NCBI GenBank assembly: GCA_003993805.1
Contig: RSEF01000002.1
Location: 76,805,772 to 76,869,771, forward strand
Source: Himantopus leucocephalus
Lineage: Eukaryota > Chordata > Aves > Charadriiformes > Recurvirostridae
Length of the DNA: 64,000 nucleotides
Reading direction: 5' to 3'
Positions 3,301 through 56,170 of the stretch are shown piece after piece. A program made the position numbers and the translations under genes. Below the pieces are notes generated by a model. The model worked only from the letters and a program-made list of their open reading frames with translations. It was not told the origin of the DNA and made no database searches. Position 1 is the stretch's first letter. Every line of letters starts with the position of its first letter.

Positions 3301-6300
3301 CTGCAGGGGATAAAACATAAGAGAAAGGGAGCCATGTGCTGTAGACCCTTGCAGGGTAACTCACCTGAGGACACAGATATTTGCTTCGTGAGGAGAAGCA
3401 GCTGGTTCAGAAGGGCAGGAAAGGACGGGAAGTGAGGAAGGACTTCTTAGAGCAGATATTACATTTTCAGAGGACAGTTCTCTAGAGGTTTTGGTGCAGA
3501 GAAATAAACTTCTGTTTCTTTGGGTCTGCCAAAAGTAAACACTCACTGCACTGCAACTTTTGCTGGAAGTTTATTGGCATTATTAGGCAAAATCCTTTGC
3601 TTTTAGTTGAGGTGTTTGCTAATAAAAAAATGGAGCTAGCAAGCTGAATGAACCCTTCCCTGAAGTACGTCCTCTGCAGTAGTTAAAGACACGTTCAGCT
3701 TTGCTGAATTTAGGGGCAGTTGTTAGTGGCTGGTATTGGGTTTCTCGTTGGGCTGTAAGACTTCTCCAAGAGATGCGGGTGTTTTGTATCCGCATCGCTC
3801 CAGCTCCCGATCGTGGTGGGTTCTGCCATTGAGAAAGGTAATGTGCGCTTTGCAAGTCGCTTGCATCATCCTCCAGAGACTTTCATTGACATTAAGAAAC
3901 AGAGGAATACTTCAACTGCCCGTGTTATAAGCCACTTACTGATAGGCATCTCTTGGAACTGTCTAACAGTAGTTCTGGTAATAAAACTGTAGTAATCTCC
4001 TGCTGCACAATGTTCTTCACTTGCTTTTTAAAGAGTGTTAATTCCAGCTTTATTGTTATACCTCTTTCTAGTAAAATTCCTTATACTGAGTGGATTCTTT
4101 TGTGCGGCAACTTTTAACAGCGTTATAGTCTCATTAAAAATGTAAATTATTTCTGTAATAGAATAACATGTTAGGTAAGGAAAAAGTACTAGGGGGAATA
4201 CTGAAATGCCAAGGGAGTATTTCATGGAGATCCAAATAAAAATATGGCCCAAATAACATCTATAGAGATTGGTAGAGTTGGCATACCTGGAAAAAATTGG
4301 GAAATAAGACCTTTTTAAGAGGAAAGGGGGAAGAGAGAGTTCCTGGTGGGACCCAGAAAAACTTGCTTTTGCATTGCCGTGATCTCTGCCCAAGCTTTTC
4401 TTTTAGGATTTAGGCAGCTGTCACTGACTTTTGTTTGTGAAAACAGGTTGTCAGGTGACAGGAACCTTTTATGCTTGTGCCCCTCCTGAGTCCCAGACTC
4501 CTGGTATCCCGATTGAGCCAAGCATAAGGTCTGGTGAAGCCCTCGCCCTGTCAGGTAAGGTCCGTAACCCCCCGGGCTTTCTGGGGAGCTTGACAAGAGA
4601 CTCCCACTTCTGACTTGCCCTGGAATTGTCTCTCCTTTCTGATGAAAAGAAAAAAGAAGAAAAAAATTAAAAAATTAAAAAAGAAACCTCTTTAATGAAT
4701 AAATTCGGTGTATGGGCTTAAGCCTCTGTTTTCCAGGGTACTTAAAGCACTTGTAGCCACAGCTCCAAGGGATGGAGGTGGTTAAAGTTGATGGAAGTGC
4801 TTTGCTGGCTAACGGTGTTAGTGCTGGGTTGCTTCGGTGAGCCATCAAATCAGGCCTTCCCAGGGGAGTTTGGAAATTTTGGGGTTGTCAGTGACTTTTA
4901 GCTCAGTTTTTCATTTGGGAGGAGGAGCCCCCACAAAAGCTGCTCCTGCTGGTGCCATCTGGCTTTGCTCTGATTCATTATTCCTGGTGAAAAAAAGGCA
5001 TTCAGGAAAGAAAAGGGAAGTTATTTCAACCAGGTTTGCAGACGCCTGGATGCTGGGGGACTTTCTGAATGACTCTAGGAAAAGATGTGGGAATGTGCTT
5101 TTCTCAGAAATAATGGATAAACCTGTAACGTGATGCTCGGCAGGTTTCTTGAGCTGGATTGTTCCCCTGATTCAGGGTCTGTATGTATGAATATATGCAT
5201 GTGTGTGTTTGTGTGTATATATATAAACATGTTATATACACACACACGTATTTTTTTTTTTATATATATATATATATATTCAGTGCTGTGTGAGTTCTTA
5301 GGCGTCAGCCAAGTTGATGGAGTGGCCATTTGAAAGTAAGGCTGGGGATTTTGGGTACAGCCCTGTTGGAGCTGGAGCCAGCAGTCGCTGCTTCTCTTCA
5401 GGCAGCTGAGTGCAAGTTCGCAGGGCCCCTGTGCAGAAGCCTCTTTTTATGCAAAATCTGGGGAGAAACACAGTTACTTCCTGATTAAATCTGAGGAAGT
5501 GTACTGAGCCGGTGGGTTTAATTGTGACGTGAACTTGGAAAATGTGACAAACAACAATTTTCTGTGTGCAGACTTTTCCTTTTAAACAGAAATGTGAAGT
5601 TTGTGGGATGTTAGCTCCTACCAAATTCCCACATCAGTAGCCCTTATAATAAAATGGGAGCGCATTAATGCTACTGTGCCCCAAAAGTATTAGTATTTAT
5701 ATTCTTTAGATGATTTTTGCTAATGCGAGCATGTCTTCTGGGTGGTGGTGACAACTAGGCTCAGAAATCTCATGCAAACTTGTCTCTTGGCCTTAGTACA
5801 TATCTGAAGCATAAACCATTTGTACTAATGTATCACAGTGATTCTATTTTTTTTTTTCTCCTTGTAGATTGTCGGCTCCACATCTGCTTATATTACCGTG
5901 AAATACTGGTAAAGGAGGTGACAACTTCTAGTCCTGAAGGTTGTAGGATATCCCATGGCCAAAGTTACGAGGTCAGCAGCCTGGAGCAAGTTATCTTCCC
6001 TTACCCAGAGGATAATGGCCAGAGGAAGAACATAGAAAAACTACTGAACCACCTGGAACGAGGAGTAATACTGTGGATGGCACCTGATGGCCTCTACGCT
6101 AAGAGACTTTGCCAAAGCCGGATCTACTGGGATGGGCCTCTGGCACTCTGCAGTGACCGACCCAACAAGCTGGAGCGGGACCAAACATGCAAGCTCTTTG
6201 ATACTCAGCAGTTTTTAGCAGGTAATTCCCGCTATGGTTTTGATAGCATTTCCGGAGATGTCACCCAGTCGCTCTCCACACCAGCTTTACAGGAGCGCTC

Positions 6301-9300: not shown

Positions 9301-12300
9301 GTTTCAGTACTGCTCTTGGGCGTCTGCTTAAGTGGGTCCCGGCTACCACCAGTGTCTGCTCCAGGAGGTTCTGCTGTCCAGGCCCAGTAGAAATACTCAT
9401 TGGAAGACATCCCGGTTTGTGCATATAAAATGACTTGTGATGCAAGGCAAACAGAAAAATTGCAGTGTTATAACGAGGCCCCCCTGATCCGTGGGAAAGT
9501 CTCCAAACTCAGTTTCTCCTCCTCTTGTCTGTTTCCTGACCTCTCTCATCCTCCCCTGGAGTGACTTCGTCTTCTCCCACTCTGCTCCAGGGTCCTCCTT
9601 TCAGACCCATCCGGAAAGTCCTTCTTACTGGTCTGGACTGTTCTTGGCTGGGATAGAGTTAATTTTCTTCATAGCAGCCCATGTGGTGCTGTGTTTTGGA
9701 TGTGTGATCAAAACAGCACTGATAACGCAGGGATGTTTTAGCTATTGCTGAACAGTGCTTGCACAGCATCAAGGCTTTCTCCATTTCTCACTCCGCACCC
9801 ACAGCGAGTAGACTGGGGTGGACAAGAGGTTGGGAAGGGACATAGCCGGGACAGCTGACCCAAGCTGACCAAAGGCATATTCCCTTCTGTATGACCTCGT
9901 GGTCAGCAGTAAACTTTGGGGGGATGGAGAGTGGGGTTGGAATTTGCCAGAAGGTTGCTGTTACCTGGGGAGGGACTGGGCATCAGTCATCTGGTGGTGA
10001 GCAATTGCTTTTTGCATCACTTGTTTTTCTTTTTTTCATTTTGTCTTTTTTTTTTCCTTTTCACCTATTAAACTGTCTTTATTTCAACCCACAAATTTTC
10101 TCACTTTTGCCCTTCTGATTTTCTCCCCCATCCTGGTGGCAGGAGCAAGCAAGCGGCTGCGTGGTGCTTACCTACCTGCCGCGGTTAACCCACAACACGG
10201 CCTTTTCTCTCTTCCCAGAGCTGCAAGCCTTTGCTCACCACGGACGCCCGCTGCCGAGATACCAGGTCGCTCTCTGCTTTGGGGAGGAATTTCCAGATCC
10301 GCAGAGGCAGAGGAAACTAATTACAGCCCATGTAAGTAGGACTTCTGCCTTACCTAAAAGAAACGTATTCCTTGGAGGGTATGAATCTGCCAGGAGGATA
10401 TGTATCAGGCTTTTCTAACTTGCGTAGGTTGTGAGGGAGGTAATAAATTCTTGAAAATTCAGCACCATCCAGACTGGGGGTTGAATCCCCAGATCTGCCA
10501 AGGACTGACTGGTGGCTGTCAGTAGGGCAGAGCATCTGATTTTGCTCTCTGTAGAGCATCAGTGATCCCTTTTGCAAATCCCTTCAAAACCTAAAGCCGA
10601 AAGCTACCCTGGAAAAGCTGGGCTGTGTTGTTATTGCTGGCCCAGTCGTGCAGCTCCTTGGGTGTCCTGGCTGGTGCAGGACGTGGTGCTTTCACAGCCG
10701 CTGCACCTGAAGGTGCTCCAGAATCCCAGTCTGCATCTCAGGGATCTCAGCCCTTAATGGGATTCAAGGGCTGCCTGTGCAGCTTTGGGCTTAAGGTAGC
10801 TGGCAGGCTCATGGGCTGACTGACCACAGTTCACACACACTCAAAGCTAGTGTTTCGGGATGCTATCTGAGAGAGGATGATGACAGAGATTGAGACCAGG
10901 TACTTTCTAAATTGGCTGTATTGGCCCATAAAACCACAAGAGAGGTGATAATGCACACGTTAGTGGCAGGGCTTAGCTTATTGCATCCTGGGGAAGAAAA
11001 CTCGTGTCTTAATTTTTCGAAAGCCCCTTTGGTAGTAGCATGGGTCCCAAGTCAGACTTTTGTCATAAGCTGTGGCCTCCCATCAGCTGCTTAGCATTCG
11101 TACTGCCACACTGCTGCTTAGCAAGTCTCTGGGGTGGAAGGTGGGAAGCTCACAAATTCATCCCAAGTTATCCGTCCCTCCTTCCTAGCATCCCTTCTCC
11201 AGCCCCCTTCTCCATCTCTTGTCCTGTCAGCTTTTCTGTGAGCCTGTACCTCCTGCCCTTTCCAGAGCTTTGCTTCCCCCTTACCAGTTTCACCTCAACT
11301 TCTTGGGCTGTCCTGGCTTGTGGGCTGGTGGGGCTCCACTATGCCACCAAACATCTATGCCCTGGGAGCTGTCTGGCTCACCTTCCCCGCTGCCTTCCCA
11401 TCTCCCCCATGGTGGGACAGGAGGTGTTCAGCTGCCCCTGAATGCTGATGAGAGCAAGGGAAGGGGGATCGGTGGGGCTGCTCCAAGGCAGCAATCCCTT
11501 CTGACTCTCTCCCTTCCCAGAGGTGGGACCCACAGACAGTGCATTTTTCCTCCAAAATGGTGCCTGTGTCTTAAGGTGGAGGCGCTGGCTGACCCACAGG
11601 AGAGGGTTGCGGAGAAGAGTTGTCCAACCTTGTCCGTCCCCTGAGAGTAAGGAGAGCTTCAGGTGTTTGTTCTCAGTGTGCATCTCAAATATTTGCAGTC
11701 AGAGCCCAAAGCCCTGAGGGGGAACGGTGGTTTCTGAAGAGAGAGAAGTGAAGGCAGTGTTAAATCATACGAGTCCCTCTTGGTGGTTGAACAGATTCCT
11801 CATCAGAGCTTGAATGAACAGAAACAAGAGTAACCTTGGTGTGAGATTGAAGTCTAATTTCAAACACAGTCATTTGGTGACATGTGTCATTCTACCTGAG
11901 GGCTCCAGTATTTCAAGTTAAGTCCTCAAAGTACTTCACAATGCAGGCGAGACTTTCAGCACTTTGCGTATGCATTTGAACGCTTCAGGTGGCCATGGAC
12001 ATGCCTGGCCTGTAGGCATCACTCAGACCCAGGGGCTGGCTAAGGGGCTGCAATTGCTGGCACACCATTTGTGTCACTGGTACGTGCCCTTCTAAATGAA
12101 GGCTGTGGAGGTAAGGCTTATTGTGCGGTTAACAAGGCACTTGGCAGCAGAACAGGCAAGGCCCATCTTAAAACAGAGCTTAGTGAGACCACTGAAATCG
12201 TTTTCCCATTCTGGTAAGCAGAACTGTTTTGTCCTGCCTTGTTTTTAACTTAAAACCACCGTAAATAACTAAGATGAGGAGCATGAAATTTTGTCACATG

Positions 12301-12472
12301 TCTGATTAACATTTTGTCTGTTCTTAAGGTTGAACCAATGTTTGCCAGGCAGCTGTATTACTTTGCTCAACAAAACAGTGGACATCTTCTGAGAGGCTAT
12401 GATTTACCAGAACTTGTGACTAGTCCAGAGGATTATCACAGATCTATTCGCCATTCCTCTATTCAAGAATAA
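142..12472 (+). CDS. IRF4: Interferon regulatory factor 4 (IRF4), complete coding region over eight exons
   Basis: Joining 142-345, 854-1040, 1855-1943, 2506-2647, 4447-4554, 5868-6221, 10219-10331 and 12329-12472 gives one uninterrupted frame of 446 codons plus TAA, with GT-AG at every junction. Residues about 17-125 form the IRF DNA-binding domain, with its five tryptophans at W23, W38, W50, W70 and W89 and a recognition helix around R94-C95. Residues about 240-415 form the IRF-association domain that contacts partners such as PU.1 (ETS) or BATF-JUN (AP-1). The last ~30 residues match the autoinhibitory tail. Family knowledge: IRF4 is a nuclear factor for plasma-cell, T-helper and macrophage programmes and, in melanocytes, pigmentation. 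The protein is about 4-5 residues shorter than human, mainly at the N terminus. The start at 142 has G at -3. No ATG precedes it in its exon, and the frame stays open upstream. Frame, length and motif agreement make the identification very secure. Confidence 0.98.
346..853 (+). other. IRF4 intron after coding exon 1
   Basis: 508 bp, GT-AG. It holds a T-rich tract at about 787-822 upstream of the acceptor. I see no other feature. Confidence 0.85.
854..1040 (+). CDS. IRF4: IRF4 coding exon 2
   Basis: Acceptor TTTCCAG at 847-853 and donor GTAAAG at 1041. Encodes AWALFKGKF... through ...VPEGAKK, residues 69-130, plus one base of the next Gly codon. It holds W70, W89 and the recognition helix (T91, R92, R94, C95). 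R94 and C95 correspond to human R98 and C99, and T91 to human T95. All three are unchanged here. Confidence 0.98.
1041..1854 (+). other. IRF4 intron after coding exon 2
   Basis: 814 bp. The middle part (about 1190-1730) is clearly GC-rich compared with the rest of the gene, and several chance reading frames cross it on both strands. I see no recognisable repeat or domain. Confidence 0.8.
1855..1943 (+). CDS. IRF4: IRF4 coding exon 3
   Basis: Acceptor AATAG is weaker than usual (ends AACATAG) and the donor is GTATGA. Encodes the proline-rich linker start, beginning AKQISMEEQ and ending TSLPSQ. The linker is less conserved than the two folded domains, but AKQ, the SPYTSLPSQ stretch and the phase (enters 1, leaves 0) match IRF4. 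Confidence 0.95.
1944..2505 (+). other. IRF4 intron after coding exon 3
   Basis: 562 bp. This is positionally the intron which in human carries the melanocyte enhancer of IRF4. I see a GCCTGGGC at 2374-2381 resembling an AP-2 half-site, but no assembled enhancer that I can defend. Confidence 0.75.
2506..2647 (+). CDS. IRF4: IRF4 coding exon 4
   Basis: Acceptor AATAG at 2501-2505, donor GTAAGA at 2648. Encodes VPNYMVPHERNWREF... to ...HHWQGPGCEN plus one base, which is the linker region. EQPHPDIPYQC and HHWQGP are typical IRF4 linker blocks. Human IRF4 has a tandem acceptor here that adds or drops one Gln. Only one AG is usable in this sequence. Confidence 0.96.
2648..4446 (+). other. IRF4 intron after coding exon 4
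   Basis: 1.8 kb, unique-looking sequence with no repeat I recognise. The short open frames inside it have no support. Confidence 0.75.
4447..4554 (+). CDS. IRF4: IRF4 coding exon 5
   Basis: Acceptor AAACAG, donor GTAAGG at 4555. Encodes CQVTGTFYACAPPESQ... to ...SGEALALS plus one base of an Asp codon. The CQVTGTFYACAPPESQ block is diagnostic for IRF4. Confidence 0.98.
4555..5867 (+). other. IRF4 intron after coding exon 5
   Basis: 1.3 kb. Contains an A-rich stretch at 4646-4686 and a compound TG/TA/CA microsatellite at about 5198-5280 (separate entry). The acceptor is preceded by a run of twelve or more T. Confidence 0.8.
5198..5280. repeat. Compound TG / TA / CA microsatellite
   Basis: Alternating TG and TA units, then a short spacer with ACATGT, then TA, CA and more TA units around a T11 run. 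The TG-TA and TA-CA arms are complementary, so the stretch can fold back on itself. It lies in an IRF4 intron. Confidence 0.9.
5868..6221 (+). CDS. IRF4: IRF4 coding exon 6 (largest part of the association domain)
   Basis: Acceptor CTTGTAG after a long pyrimidine tract, donor GTAATT at 6222. Encodes residues 244-361, starting DCRLHICLYYREILVKE and ending QTCKLFDTQQFLA. This is the core of the IRF-association domain, a beta-sandwich with an MH2-like fold. The blocks FPYPEDNGQRKNIEKLL and MAPDGLYAKRLCQSRIYWDG are strongly conserved. The frame stays open 32 codons into the following intron, to a TGA at 6317, so retention would give a truncated protein. Confidence 0.99.
6222..9638 (+). other. IRF4 intron 7, part upstream of the LTR
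   Basis: 3.4 kb of intron with no gene or TE that I can name. A GA-rich stretch at about 8010-8260 produces long chance frames on both strands. An A/C-rich low-complexity tract lies at 7169-7200. Confidence 0.7.
9639..10197 (+). mobile_element. Solo LTR of an avian endogenous retrovirus
   Basis: About 560 bp starting TGTTCTTGGCTGGGATAGAG and ending GGTTAACCCACAACA, so TG...CA termini. Internal blocks are typical of a family I know from many neoavian genomes: GAGTTAATTTTCTTCATAG, GGGACAGCTGACCC-like, GTGAGCAATTGC, CACCTATTAAACTGTC, TCTCACTTTTGCCCTTCTGA and GCGGCTGCGTGGTGCTTA. It has the same orientation as IRF4. There is no adjacent internal retroviral sequence, so it is a solo LTR. No 5-bp target-site duplication is visible, which suggests age. 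Assignment to class III (ERVL-like) is from memory only. It ends 21 bp before IRF4 coding exon 7. Confidence 0.88.
10185..10189 (+). promoter_or_regulatory. Candidate splicing branch point for IRF4 coding exon 7, inside the LTR
   Basis: TTAAC fits the yUnAy consensus, with the branch A at 10188, 31 nt before the exon. The only A between the LTR end and the exon is the one in the acceptor AG. A second candidate, CTTAC at 10167-10171, is also inside the LTR. Confidence 0.6.
10219..10331 (+). CDS. IRF4: IRF4 coding exon 7
   Basis: Acceptor with a clean pyrimidine tract ending CCCAG, donor GTAAGT at 10332. Encodes E362 to H399: ELQAFAHHGRPLPRYQ, then LCFGEEFPDPQRQRKL and ITAH. This is the end of the association-domain core. 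The sequence is highly conserved, so the close LTR insertion has not damaged the exon itself. Confidence 0.98.
10332..12328 (+). other. IRF4 last intron
   Basis: 2.0 kb, GT-AG. A GC- and pyrimidine-rich portion lies at about 11150-11650. I recognise no repeat or coding segment in it. Confidence 0.75.
12329..12472 (+). CDS. IRF4: IRF4 last coding exon
   Basis: Acceptor TTCTTAAG at 12321-12328. Encodes residues 400-446, VEPMFARQLYYFAQQNSGH... to ...SIRHSSIQE, then TAA at 12470-12472. This is the end of the association domain and the C-terminal autoinhibitory segment. The ending SIRHSSIQE is the usual IRF4 C terminus. Confidence 0.99.
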   Translation, partial: VEPMFARQLYYFAQQNSGHLLRGYDLPELVTSPEDYHRSIRHSSIQE

Positions 12473-19792: not shown

Positions 19793-20345
19793 TTTGGGCC
19801 CAGCCATCCAGCCAGTTTTTTACCCAGTGAAGAGTGCACCTGTCCAAGCCATGAGCAGCCAGTTTTTCCAGGAGAATGCTGTGCGAAATGGTGTCAAAAA
19901 CTTTACTAAAGCTAAATGGTAGACAACAGACACAGCCTTTCCCTCATCCACTAAGCAGGTCACCTTGTCATAGAAAGAGATCAGGTTAGTCAAGCAGGAC
20001 CTGCTTTCATAAACCCATGCTGACTGGGCCCTATTGTCCTGTATGTGCCGCGTGATGGTGCTCAAGATGATCTGCTCCATAACCTTCCCCAGCACCAAGG
20101 TTAGACTGACAGGCCTGCAGTTCCCCAGATCCTCCTTACGGCCCTTCTTGTGGATGAGCGTCACATTCGCTGACCTCCAGTCAACTGGGACCTCCCCGGG
20201 TAGCCAGGACTGCTGATAAATGATGGAAAGCAGCTTGGTGAGCACTTCCGCCAGCCCCCTCAGTACCCTCGGGTGGATCCCGTCTGGCCCCATAGGCCTG
20301 TGTGTGTCTAAGTGGTGTAGCAGGTCACTAGCCATTTCCCAAACT
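19793..20345 (-). mobile_element. CR1 LINE fragment (reverse-transcriptase region)
   Basis: Read on the minus strand, the sequence encodes blocks of the CR1 ORF2 reverse transcriptase: GPDGIHPRVLRGLAEV, SIIYQQSWLPGEVP, KKGRKEDLGNCRPVSLT, GKVMEQIILSTITRHIQDN, SCLTNLISFYDKVT. The catalytic block near the left end is frameshifted, and VKNWLDGWA follows in another frame up to the gap. The copy is 5'- and 3'-truncated and inactive. Confidence 0.95.
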
Positions 20346-34293: not shown

Positions 34294-37200
34294 CTGTAAA
34301 AAGAAATAATTACAACTTTGGCAGATTCTGAAAAGGGAACAATTACCAGAAGTTTTGGTTATTATGTCTGTGAACTCAATACACTGTCAGCTTAAATAAA
34401 GGGCCTAAAACTGGATCTATTCAAATATCTGAACATTATAGGTATTTAAAAGTATACCAATGTGTCAGGATGATCTGTGGCCAGAGGAGGCCTTAGCCAC
34501 AGAGATTTTATCAAGGTGATAAAATAGCCCTTTATATATCTTTCCTTCCAGATATAGATGATCTTCTTGAGAGAAACATATTTGCCAAACACAATGGCAA
34601 AAGGACTAGTAAAGAGTGTCATAACATGCTTCTGTAAGGAAAATCCAGAAACTGCCAGACTATGAACCATAAAACCAGTATCCCTTATCAAGGCTATGGC
34701 TTTTCGTGTACAGCTGAATTGCGAATTTCGGTTCTCAAACTTGTCTTCGGAAGGTATTTTGTTCATTTCTCTTAACTATCATGGCTGAAAGATCAGAGAT
34801 GGTATGACTGTTCTAGGAGAAACATTAATTCGCTGGTAACCATGTGGTTTTGTCCTTCATAGATAACTGATAAGTATGAATGAGTTCATTTTGGAGCAGA
34901 ACAATGGTTCATTTACATCTACATAGCTGCTAAGAAGGTACTTGGTGCACTGGATAATATTTATTGCAATGCACAAACTACAGGTGTAGGACCAAGAGTG
35001 TTGATGGCTCTGTTGTAGGAGATAATTACTGTAACAGTTGAGATGTATTATCAAGTATTACAGTCTTGGCTGTGTGTTTTATTTTCCCCATATTCTAGGG
35101 AAGGACGTTTCCTCCAAAGTTTTTGCTCTATTTCAAAAACAAGCTAGATGGGGCAGACATGTATCACCTCAACTTTTTGGAAAGCTGTGATTGTTGAACA
35201 GCCAGAAACAGAAGAAATTATACTGTACATTAAAAAAACCCAAACCAACCCACGAACAACTTGAACAACAAAATCAGTATCGGCTTCCTCAGCAGGTCCT
35301 CTGGAAGACGACTATAGCCACATTCATCATTTAGTATCATAGTAACGACTGTGAACGAACAGAAGTGAACAGCTCTAAATCAGTGCATAAACGTGTGTTA
35401 TTTTACACAAATATGTGTAAATTACAATGCGCTGCCTGTACCGATGACAATTATGGTGTAAAAACCTGGGAAACATAACAACTTTTGCACTGTCTAGGGC
35501 TCAGAACACCAAGGCAGATGTAAAAATGATGCAGTTCTTGATTCTCATCTGTCCCATGAAGCTGATATGCTTGTGACTAAGTGAAAAAAAAAAATAAAAT
35601 CTACAGGTGTTTCGGAAAGTATGAGTTGAAAGAACTCTCCTTACTCAAAACTGATTCCTATCTTTAATAAAGCATAAGAGCTAAGTAAGGCAAGGAGGTA
35701 TCTTGAGACTTGTTGTAGCTAGTGAGGAGTAGGTTTGAATAAATAGACAGAGGACATCTGGAAGAAGGTACAGTCCGCAGACCATGGGCTGCACAAACAG
35801 TCTCTTTGTGTGTCTACAAAATATTCTAAATTGTGACTGAAGTGCAAACTGATTTGATGCAGTTCAGTTCCTGAAAGTAGCGTAATACCAATCTCAAGTT
35901 CAAAACATCTACACTTATACTAATATACTCATTATAAATCCATCCTAATTTTACCATATTACTCTTCATCAACCTATGCTTGTAAAACAGACTACTAAAT
36001 ACTACGTTGGACGCAGCAAAGCAGCTTGGTCAAAGGTTGCTATGGTGGGGAAGGAGGAACCCCAAACTCCTCCCTCCTCCTGATGTTAAGAACCCAAAAA
36101 AACCCACAGACCCTTCTTATTTGTTTTTAAAATGAAACAGGCCCATTTTGAGAGTTCCCCATATCTCAGCTTGCAAAAGCTTGGACTTTTGTTCTTTGGC
36201 CATTTTTTAAATTGCTGCTAAATTCAGTAAGACAAGACAATGGACCCCACAGAAAATTTAAGATTTAACAAGGAAGGCTAAAGTAAATTACAAAATAAAT
36301 ACAAAGCTATACTGGACTGATCAGACTATGATGGACAAAAGAGAGATGCCACAAAGCCATCAGCTCTTCAATGTAATTTAATAAGCTAAGACTTAGCTTA
36401 CTTTTAACTCTGTCCGAAGAGGCTTCTGCTCTGTAATTTGGAAGGGTCAAATACAGTGAACATTAACCCTCTTATAACAAAGTTCTGATACAAGAGTAAA
36501 AAGCAATGGCTCCAGAAAGGAGACAAGAAGGTGCATTGTACTCACTTTTTGTCAGTTCCACTGGAGAGCTGAGGCAAGGCTTCCAAAGCTTGCTTAAAGC
36601 TCGAGCTGCAAGGAAAACAAAAATACGCATATTCCATTGGTACAAGTCTCACTATTCATAGTTTCTCTCTATAAATTCCATGGAGAAATGCTATATTTTA
36701 TCCACTCTTATTTCGATAAATTAACAAAATATTAATTTGACACCTTACATTCATGTGCAAGTTGAACATAAGGTGGTCATGGGTTCAAGCAGGTCTCTTG
36801 ACACTCCTAATGTGACCTATGCCAGACATCAACAGGAAATGTTACATCAGCAGCTGATTTAAGACTGTGCTTGACTCTTGAAGAATTAGACAGTTGCCAG
36901 CCTGCCTTTCGCCTCAAACTAAGTGATCATCAGAGTATGAAACACTGATAAAACATTTATTTTGGCTTTCTGTGCTCAGTAGACAGGTCACTGCATTCTC
37001 CCCTACAGAAGGGGGCCTACAGAGAGAATGACAGTAGGTTTGCATTGAGGTAATGTAGATTCATAGAATAATTTAGGTTGGAAGGGACGTCTGGAGGTCT
37101 TCAGGTTTAACCCCCCTCTCAAAGTAGGGCCAGCTTCGAGGTTAGAGGTTTCTTAGGGCATTATCCAGTCAAGTTCTGAGTAACTCCAAAGATAGGGGTT

Positions 37201-54992: not shown

Positions 54993-55510
54993 ATCATAGA
55001 ATAGTTTAGGTTGGAAGGGACCTTTAAAGGTCATCTAGTCCAACCTCCCTCGCAATACGCAGGGACACCTTCAACTAGATCAGGTTGCTCAGAGCCCCAT
55101 CCAACCTGACCTTGAATGTTTCCAGGGATGGGGCATCTACCGCCTCTCTGGGCAACCTGTTCCGGTATTTCACCACCCTCATTGTAAAAAATTTCTTCCT
55201 TATATCTAGTCTCAATCTTCCCTCTTTTAGTTTAAAGCCATTACCCCTTGTCCTATTGCAACAGGTCCTGCCAAAAAGTTTGTCCCCATCTTTCCTGTAG
55301 GCCCCCTTTAAGTACTGAAAGGCTGCCATAAGGTCTCCCCGGAGCCTTCTCTTCTGCAGGGTGAACAACCCCAGTTCTTTCAGCCTGTCCTCATCACAGA
55401 GGTGTTCCAGCCCTCTGATGATTTTTATGGCCCTCCTCCAGACCCGCTCCAACAGGTCCATGTCTTTCCTGTGCTGACGGCTCCAGAGCTGGATGCAGTA
55501 CTCCACTGTA
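54993..55510 (-). mobile_element. CR1 LINE 3' fragment with ORF2 C terminus
   Basis: The left end is the reverse complement of the CR1 3' terminus (TCATAGAATAGTTTAGGTTG, AAAGGTCATCTAGTCCAACC). The minus strand stays open from 55545 to 55075 and encodes CR1 ORF2 C-terminal blocks: LWSRQHRKDMDLLERVWRRA, LEHLCDEDRLKELGLFTLQK, RLRGDLMAAFQYLKGAY, RNRLPREAVDAPSLETFK. A fairly young, 5'-truncated copy with no stop over about 150 codons. Confidence 0.96.
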
Positions 55511-56170
55511 ACAAACTCTCCTTCTTGACTTGAAAATGAATACATCTAGGCATGCCTCAGTACTACCTGAACTTTTCGACTACCAGCAACCCATTAGCTG
55601 TAGGATGGCTTCCTAAGCAAATATGGCTTCATTCTCCCCAAGGAAAATTTCTTAATTTTTTAACAAATTACCTCCCCCTAACCCCCTATAATTTTCAGCA
55701 TATAATAGTGATAACATTATGTATATAAGTTCTATTATCACTAAATTTCCACTAAGAACAATTTTACTGCTGAAAGGTTTTCTTTTGATAAAATAGAGTG
55801 TTAATAACTAACATGTAAGGTGCTGAAAAATCAACAAGGCACATGTCCCTGGTACGACTATGTTCCCACTGATTTTAGCAGTTTGTAAGGCAGGACTGAG
55901 ATCTTTCTGTGTATACCCAGAATATTTGGCAGAGTGAGAACTTAATAGCTGTTTTCTGGCCACAGAACATTCTTAAGTTTCTAACGCCTGTAAGGAAGAG
56001 AAACACTGAAGCAAGACACAATATTGCACGTAAGAGGGGACAGACTGCGTAGTATATATACATATTGGACATTTTCAAAAAAGCCATCTGCATCAACAGT
56101 TTTCTCATGAAATACAGAGTATGCTGACCAAGAAACTGCTCTGCTGCTTAAAAGCTCTCTGCTGTTTGTT

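Follow-up and report, generated by a model that had tools for sequence, protein, structure and literature searches.

Our analysis indicates that a sense-oriented LTR insertion in an ancestor of several birds very probably displaced the branch site that precedes coding exon 7 of IRF4, and that this exon is now very probably spliced via an adenine of the LTR. The replacement of an IRF4 branch site by an LTR, which the initial annotation had proposed, is supported by an empty site in one sequence (P0128) and by six other sequences that carry the same LTR tail at the same junction. All positions refer to the window, that is, the whole 64,000-nucleotide stretch of DNA that was analyzed, and distances with a minus sign are counted upstream from exon 7.

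We propose that a retroviral LTR, oriented in sense to IRF4, landed downstream of the branch site and upstream of the polypyrimidine tract that precede exon 7, and that this would have happened once, in the ancestor of several birds. The old motif, CTTAC with its adenine at position 9627 (A9627), would have been cut off from the acceptor by the insert, and the final bases of the LTR would now occupy the expected branch zone and supply TTAAC at -31. The resulting 3' splice site would be a hybrid that combines an LTR branch adenine with a host polypyrimidine tract and a host AG.

IRF4 and the insert upstream of exon 7

The host gene is IRF4, on the forward strand, with eight coding exons and an intact frame of 446 aa. 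The exons were located by splice sites and by tblastn with human IRF4. The encoded protein shares 98% identity with IRF4 from Sakesphorus luctuosus, the representative of a cluster of 412 proteins (best 120 of 1,929 matches). Full-length IRF4 proteins among these best 120 are uninformative on the intron, and the informative sequences were the short read-through ORFs alone. The features on which the argument depends are the following:

142-345, 854-1040, 1855-1943, 2506-2647 and 4447-4554, + strand: IRF4 coding exons 1-5 (tblastn, GT/AG borders)
5868-6221, + strand: IRF4 coding exon 6, the upstream exon of the LTR-bearing intron (tblastn with human IRF4, splice sites)
9430-9635, + strand: host intron to the left of the insert, homologous to P0128 (tblastn of P0128)
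9624-9628, + strand: CTTAC, putative displaced ancestral branch motif with A9627 (joined flanks; counterpart in P0128 at -22)
9629-9633 (alternative 9634-9638), + strand: probable left target site duplication, TGGTC (flank comparison)
9634-10197, + strand: solo LTR-like insert of about 560 bp, sense to IRF4 (TG...CA ends, imperfect 5-bp duplication, presence or absence of the tail)
10067-10072, + strand: ATTAAA, possible polyadenylation signal of the LTR, in sense (sequence motif)
10115-10142, + strand: possible competing 3' splice site in the LTR, with CTGAT (A10118), pyrimidines and AG at 10141-10142 (sequence)
10167-10171, + strand: CTTAC with A10170 at -49, ranked second as a branch candidate (motif score)
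10185-10189, + strand: TTAAC with A10188, the branch site proposed here, within the LTR tail and 31 nt from the exon (motif score, carriers)
10198-10202, + strand: putative right target site duplication, CGGCC (identical in the joint reading of P0121 and P0124)
10203-10218, + strand: host polypyrimidine tract and acceptor AG (sequence)
10219-10331, + strand: IRF4 coding exon 7, 113 nt (tblastn, splice sites)
12329-12472, + strand: IRF4 coding exon 8, including the stop codon (tblastn, splice sites)

The acceptor AG of exon 7 lies at 10217-10218 and its donor GT at 10332-10333. These borders and the intact frame bear out the start at 10219 and the 113-nt length given in the initial annotation, which had also assigned the exon to the partner-binding domain and held that its skipping would be out of frame. 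Both of these points agree with our results: the exon 7 peptide, with the end of the preceding exon, matches the solved partner-binding domain of IRF4 (5bvi, E 3.7e-27), and skipping is computed to bring a stop just after the new junction, with a product of 362 aa. Exonization of a transposable element (TE) was ruled out for exon 7, which is conserved IRF4 coding sequence.

The region before exon 7 has the features of a U2-type 3' splice site, namely TTAAC at -31, a 20-nt stretch upstream of the AG that is 85% pyrimidine, and an AG-free zone of 65 nt. The 21 host bases between the LTR and the exon (10198-10218) had been described as free of adenine apart from the final AG, and by base count this is correct: the AG supplies their single adenine, and 10198-10216 contains none. 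Within the AG-free zone, the motif ranking is A10188 (-31), A10170 (-49) and A10192 (-27), on an approximate score matrix, and the earlier choice of A10188 as best candidate is thereby upheld. According to excerpts of a splicing study (PMC7969005), some 90% of branch points in humans are located 19-37 nt upstream of the acceptor. Taken over 9,978 intron points of the window, yTAAC occurs at that distance in 2.3% and any yTnAy in 23%, or 7.2% when no AG intervenes. Because of these background frequencies the TTAAC motif alone is unremarkable, and it is the comparison with other genomes that carries the weight.

The insert ends in CA at 10196-10197 and begins with a TG at either 9634 or 9639. 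With a start at 9634, the flanks TGGTC and CGGCC are identical at three of five positions and both differences are transitions; with 9639, the flanks TGGAC and CGGCC also agree at three of five, and one difference is a transversion. The flanks of a third TG, at 9629, are alike in two of five. The terminal inverted repeat favors 9639 (TGTT/AACA, 8/15 versus 6/15 for 9634). When the flanks are joined, the branch-to-exon distance is 23 for 9634 and 28 for 9639, versus 22 in P0128. Ungapped joins are best at 9625-9630 (4 mismatches), with 9624 and 9631-9635 one mismatch worse, and both starts remain. On the flanks and the joined distance, 9634 is probably the start. Of the boundaries first proposed for the LTR (9639 and 10197), the end stands, given the CA terminus and the missing tail in P0128, whereas the start is likelier to be 9634.

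The label 'LTR' is a putative one that draws on the ends, the length, the possible polyadenylation signal and the general features of such elements. Other copies of the LTR in the window were sought by blastn, which beyond the self-match returned short matches of 41 nt or less, nearly all of them to a T-rich stretch. In addition, pieces of the LTR had no match in viral_contigs or genome_contigs, the whole LTR had no match among phages and plasmids, and its letter strings, when searched in papers, gave a single unrelated match.

Carrier sequences and the empty site

The carriers and the empty site are known from translated ORFs alone. A first query, the LTR tail and exon 7 translated in the wrong frame, was used in a protein search of ORFs in public contigs and recovered P0121 (one of four candidates, E 1e-12), with 79% identity over 47 residues that span the LTR tail, the junction and the exon. 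A second query, in the IRF4 frame, recovered 12 ORFs, with all 12 candidates significant. Half of these (P0122-P0127) join the LTR tail to exon 7 across the same junction; two of them, P0123 and P0126, have a portion of the tail in another frame, which we read as the result of small indels. The tail, the one part of the insert visible in the ORFs, is present in P0121-P0127 and missing from P0128. A search for relatives of P0124 in viral_contigs found none.

P0122-P0128 are taken as birds because of the PRYQ form of the exon, which they share with the bird proteins P0001, P0008 and P0084. The form PRFQ is found in the turtle, crocodile, tuatara and mammal rows that were compared (P0002, P0022, P0029 and P0006) and in P0129-P0133; the latter five were excluded from the bird counts for that form, and P0133 also starts within the exon. 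Past exon 7, at about 10380-10410 of the window, a length change (about 11 nt by estimate) shifts the frame relative to P0122-P0126, and the tblastn match splits there.

P0121 and P0124, although in different frames, fit one and the same DNA over 155 nt, with 64 solutions, equal to the number for the window's own two frames. In contrast, P0121 comes into conflict with the window and with P0122, P0123, P0126 and P0127 inside a stretch of about 33 nt (P0125, which has a one-codon gap, was left out). Because of this joint compatibility P0121 and P0124 are counted as one sequence, so that there are seven distinct carriers, the window included. Between the window and the P0121/P0124 reading, 7 of 32 determined bases of the LTR tail and 2 of 19 host bases differ, numbers too small for dating.

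The empty-site evidence comes from a single sequence, P0128. In a tblastn search of 1.6 kb with composition correction off, its residues 1-73 match window 9430-9627 (40% identity, E 3e-7) and its residues 31-76 match window 9510-9635 in another frame (48% identity, E 1e-5). The match is a weak one, with gaps and one stop in the window's reading in addition to the low identity of 40-48%. In P0128 the left-flank intron continues directly into the polypyrimidine tract and exon 7 without the LTR tail, and since the flank match extends to residue 76 it leaves no space for an insert. At -22, where P0128 has leucine-threonine codons, yTnAC is certain and lines up with A9627 of the window, and the joins of the window's flanks locate the insertion point at, or slightly beyond, the CTTAC motif of A9627.

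A rival reading is that bases 10160-10197 are ancestral intron, with the LTR ending further upstream. The initial annotation had itself named this as the outcome that would speak against it, and the comparison was carried out here in part, by protein-level reads. No second LTR copy was found in the four collections searched that would fix the 3' end, and residues 71-75 of P0128 can alternatively be aligned to the LTR tail with three of five identical. However, P0128, which is without the element, has the left flank followed by the polypyrimidine tract with no tail between, indicating that these bases are not ancestral, and the TG...CA ends fit 10197; we consider ancestral sequence here highly improbable.

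The displaced motif, for its part, should not serve exon 7. In the window A9627 lies 592 nt from the exon, with 33 AGs between, and under the AG exclusion rule splicing uses an AG once it lies more than about 8-12 nt past the branch point, as described in excerpts of PMC7969005. Continued use of A9627 was rejected on these figures. More generally, a distant branch point that bypasses the intervening AGs, be it A9627 or an upstream adenine of the LTR, seems the least credible of the alternatives: distant branch points do exist (PMC7969005, excerpts), but in addition to the AGs that follow A9627 there are four at 10141-10153 of the LTR.

Candidate branch adenines in the carriers

All branch candidates between -15 and -55 in the carriers fall in the LTR tail; in that interval no certain adenine and no possible yTnAy is found nearer to the exon than -22, where the host bases lie. 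From the codons, yTnAC can be taken as certain in five of seven carriers: the window, P0122, P0123 and P0124 have it at -31, and P0125 has it at -28. In P0126 and P0127 a threonine is replaced by phenylalanine and A10188 is lost; these two have a certain adenine at -27, with a uridine at -2 relative to it only if the phenylalanine codon is TTT, and a possible adenine at -32. No single adenine is kept across all seven carriers. An LTR-derived branch site is probable in all carriers, whereas A10188, the adenine named in the initial annotation, is not universal, being gone in two of the seven.

The joint reading of P0121 and P0124 is informative on this point. The compared part of the LTR tail contains eight adenines in the window; P0124/P0121 has G at six of these positions and keeps the two adenines of TTAAC; A10187 and A10188 are the sole certain adenines in 10164-10216 of that reading, with 10193 being A or C. 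This retention suggests that the TTAAC adenines may matter, although CpG decay on the lineage of the window may account for some of the differences and the comparison is not a test of selection.

It is possible, though we think it rather unlikely, that the LTR branch point is a different adenine, such as A10192 (-27) or A10170 (-49), or that several are in use. Six of the seven carriers have a certain adenine at -27 or -24, versus five of seven for A10188. But A10192 has no uridine at -2 in the window, where it scores 2.43 versus 5.12 for A10188, and it is G in P0124/P0121. A10170 scores well in the window; in ungapped register, however, the adenine is missing in five of the six other carriers, and the sixth, P0122, keeps the adenine and loses the uridine. 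A10170 was rejected as a common branch site on that count of five of six. For the window, motif, position and partial conservation thus point to A10188 as the adenine that is probably used, and in P0126 and P0127 the branch point would have shifted to A10192 or A10187, most likely still within the LTR tail.

Possible transcript effects and related systems

The insert may have side effects on IRF4 transcripts. One alternative, to which we give about as little credence as to the use of a different adenine, is that splicing is harmed, with the LTR acceptor (AG 10141-10142) or the ATTAAA diverting transcripts and the inclusion of exon 7 reduced or regulated. The LTR does have a pyrimidine-rich stretch with CTGAT and AG, and ATTAAA at 10067, and a starling gene model (P0005) has exon 7 shortened at its start by 78 nt, with the frame kept. 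Against this, the nearest representative bird protein (P0001, cluster of 412) has the full exon 7, and P0005 is an annotation model. Use of AG 10141-10142 is predicted to add 76 nt and to end the protein at 425 aa, and use of AG 10148-10149 to add 23 residues in frame.

The P0005 model, from Lamprotornis superbus (cluster of 49), begins exon 7 at an exon-internal AG, corresponding to window 10295-10296, and drops 26 residues; this could be an annotation effect or genuine use of a cryptic acceptor.

In its boldest form, the proposal would be that a single ancestral LTR insertion gave an essential immune gene a new branch site in place of the old and was fixed and kept in a large bird group, that the site later moved within the tail in the line of P0126 and P0127, and that the LTR acceptor and polyadenylation signal give carriers regulated short forms of IRF4 that are absent from non-carriers. 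We regard this full combination as improbable, slightly more so than either diverted splicing or a different adenine taken by itself.

Exons and acceptors made by TEs are well known. In the DBASS survey of pathogenic pseudoexons, the excerpted text describes TEs that supply predicted branch sites, once from an LTR (LTR78 in F8), and the IRF4 case is alike in its TE-given predicted branch site (PMC7951965). In those pseudoexons, as far as the excerpts go, the TE contributes all or part of the acceptor of a newly created disease exon (PMC7951965), whereas in IRF4 the exon, the polypyrimidine tract and the AG are old host sequence and the branch site alone would be replaced. In intron 4a of OGDH, TE insertions introduce or eliminate sites that compete with distant branch points; there too a TE close to the acceptor brings branch sites, which in OGDH were mapped in reporters (PMC7969005, excerpts). 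The OGDH insertions described in these excerpts were engineered in a reporter (PMC7969005), in contrast to the natural insertion in IRF4, found in several birds.

Among bird elements, the hitchcock-related LTRs (TguLTR5d) make 5-bp duplications and serve as markers of the neoavian radiation (PMC4540587, excerpts). They resemble the IRF4 insert, whose own 5-bp duplication is putative and imperfect, in presence or absence between birds and in intronic cases, but excerpts of that report present them as markers and say nothing on splicing (PMC4540587). Among the matches listed in searches of open-licence papers, judged by title and opening of the abstract, we found no natural, inherited replacement by a TE of the branch site alone of an old conserved exon that is kept in several species. 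The IRF4 locus is a natural experiment in which the empty state, the filled state and a filled state with an altered adenine all exist, so that a single gene allows tests of branch-site loss, replacement and shift with the exon preserved.

Two further observations concern IRF4 models and the rest of the window. Several IRF4 models, P0002-P0004 from turtles and P0077 and P0112 from fish, contain an additional phosphatase domain (PF00782), as if fused to the neighboring DUSP22 gene. Elsewhere in the window, ORFs on the reverse strand at 19820-20335 and 55075-55545 resemble pieces of CR1-type LINE proteins, and repeats related to these LINE-like ORFs are found by blastn at 37053, 46487 and 54986.
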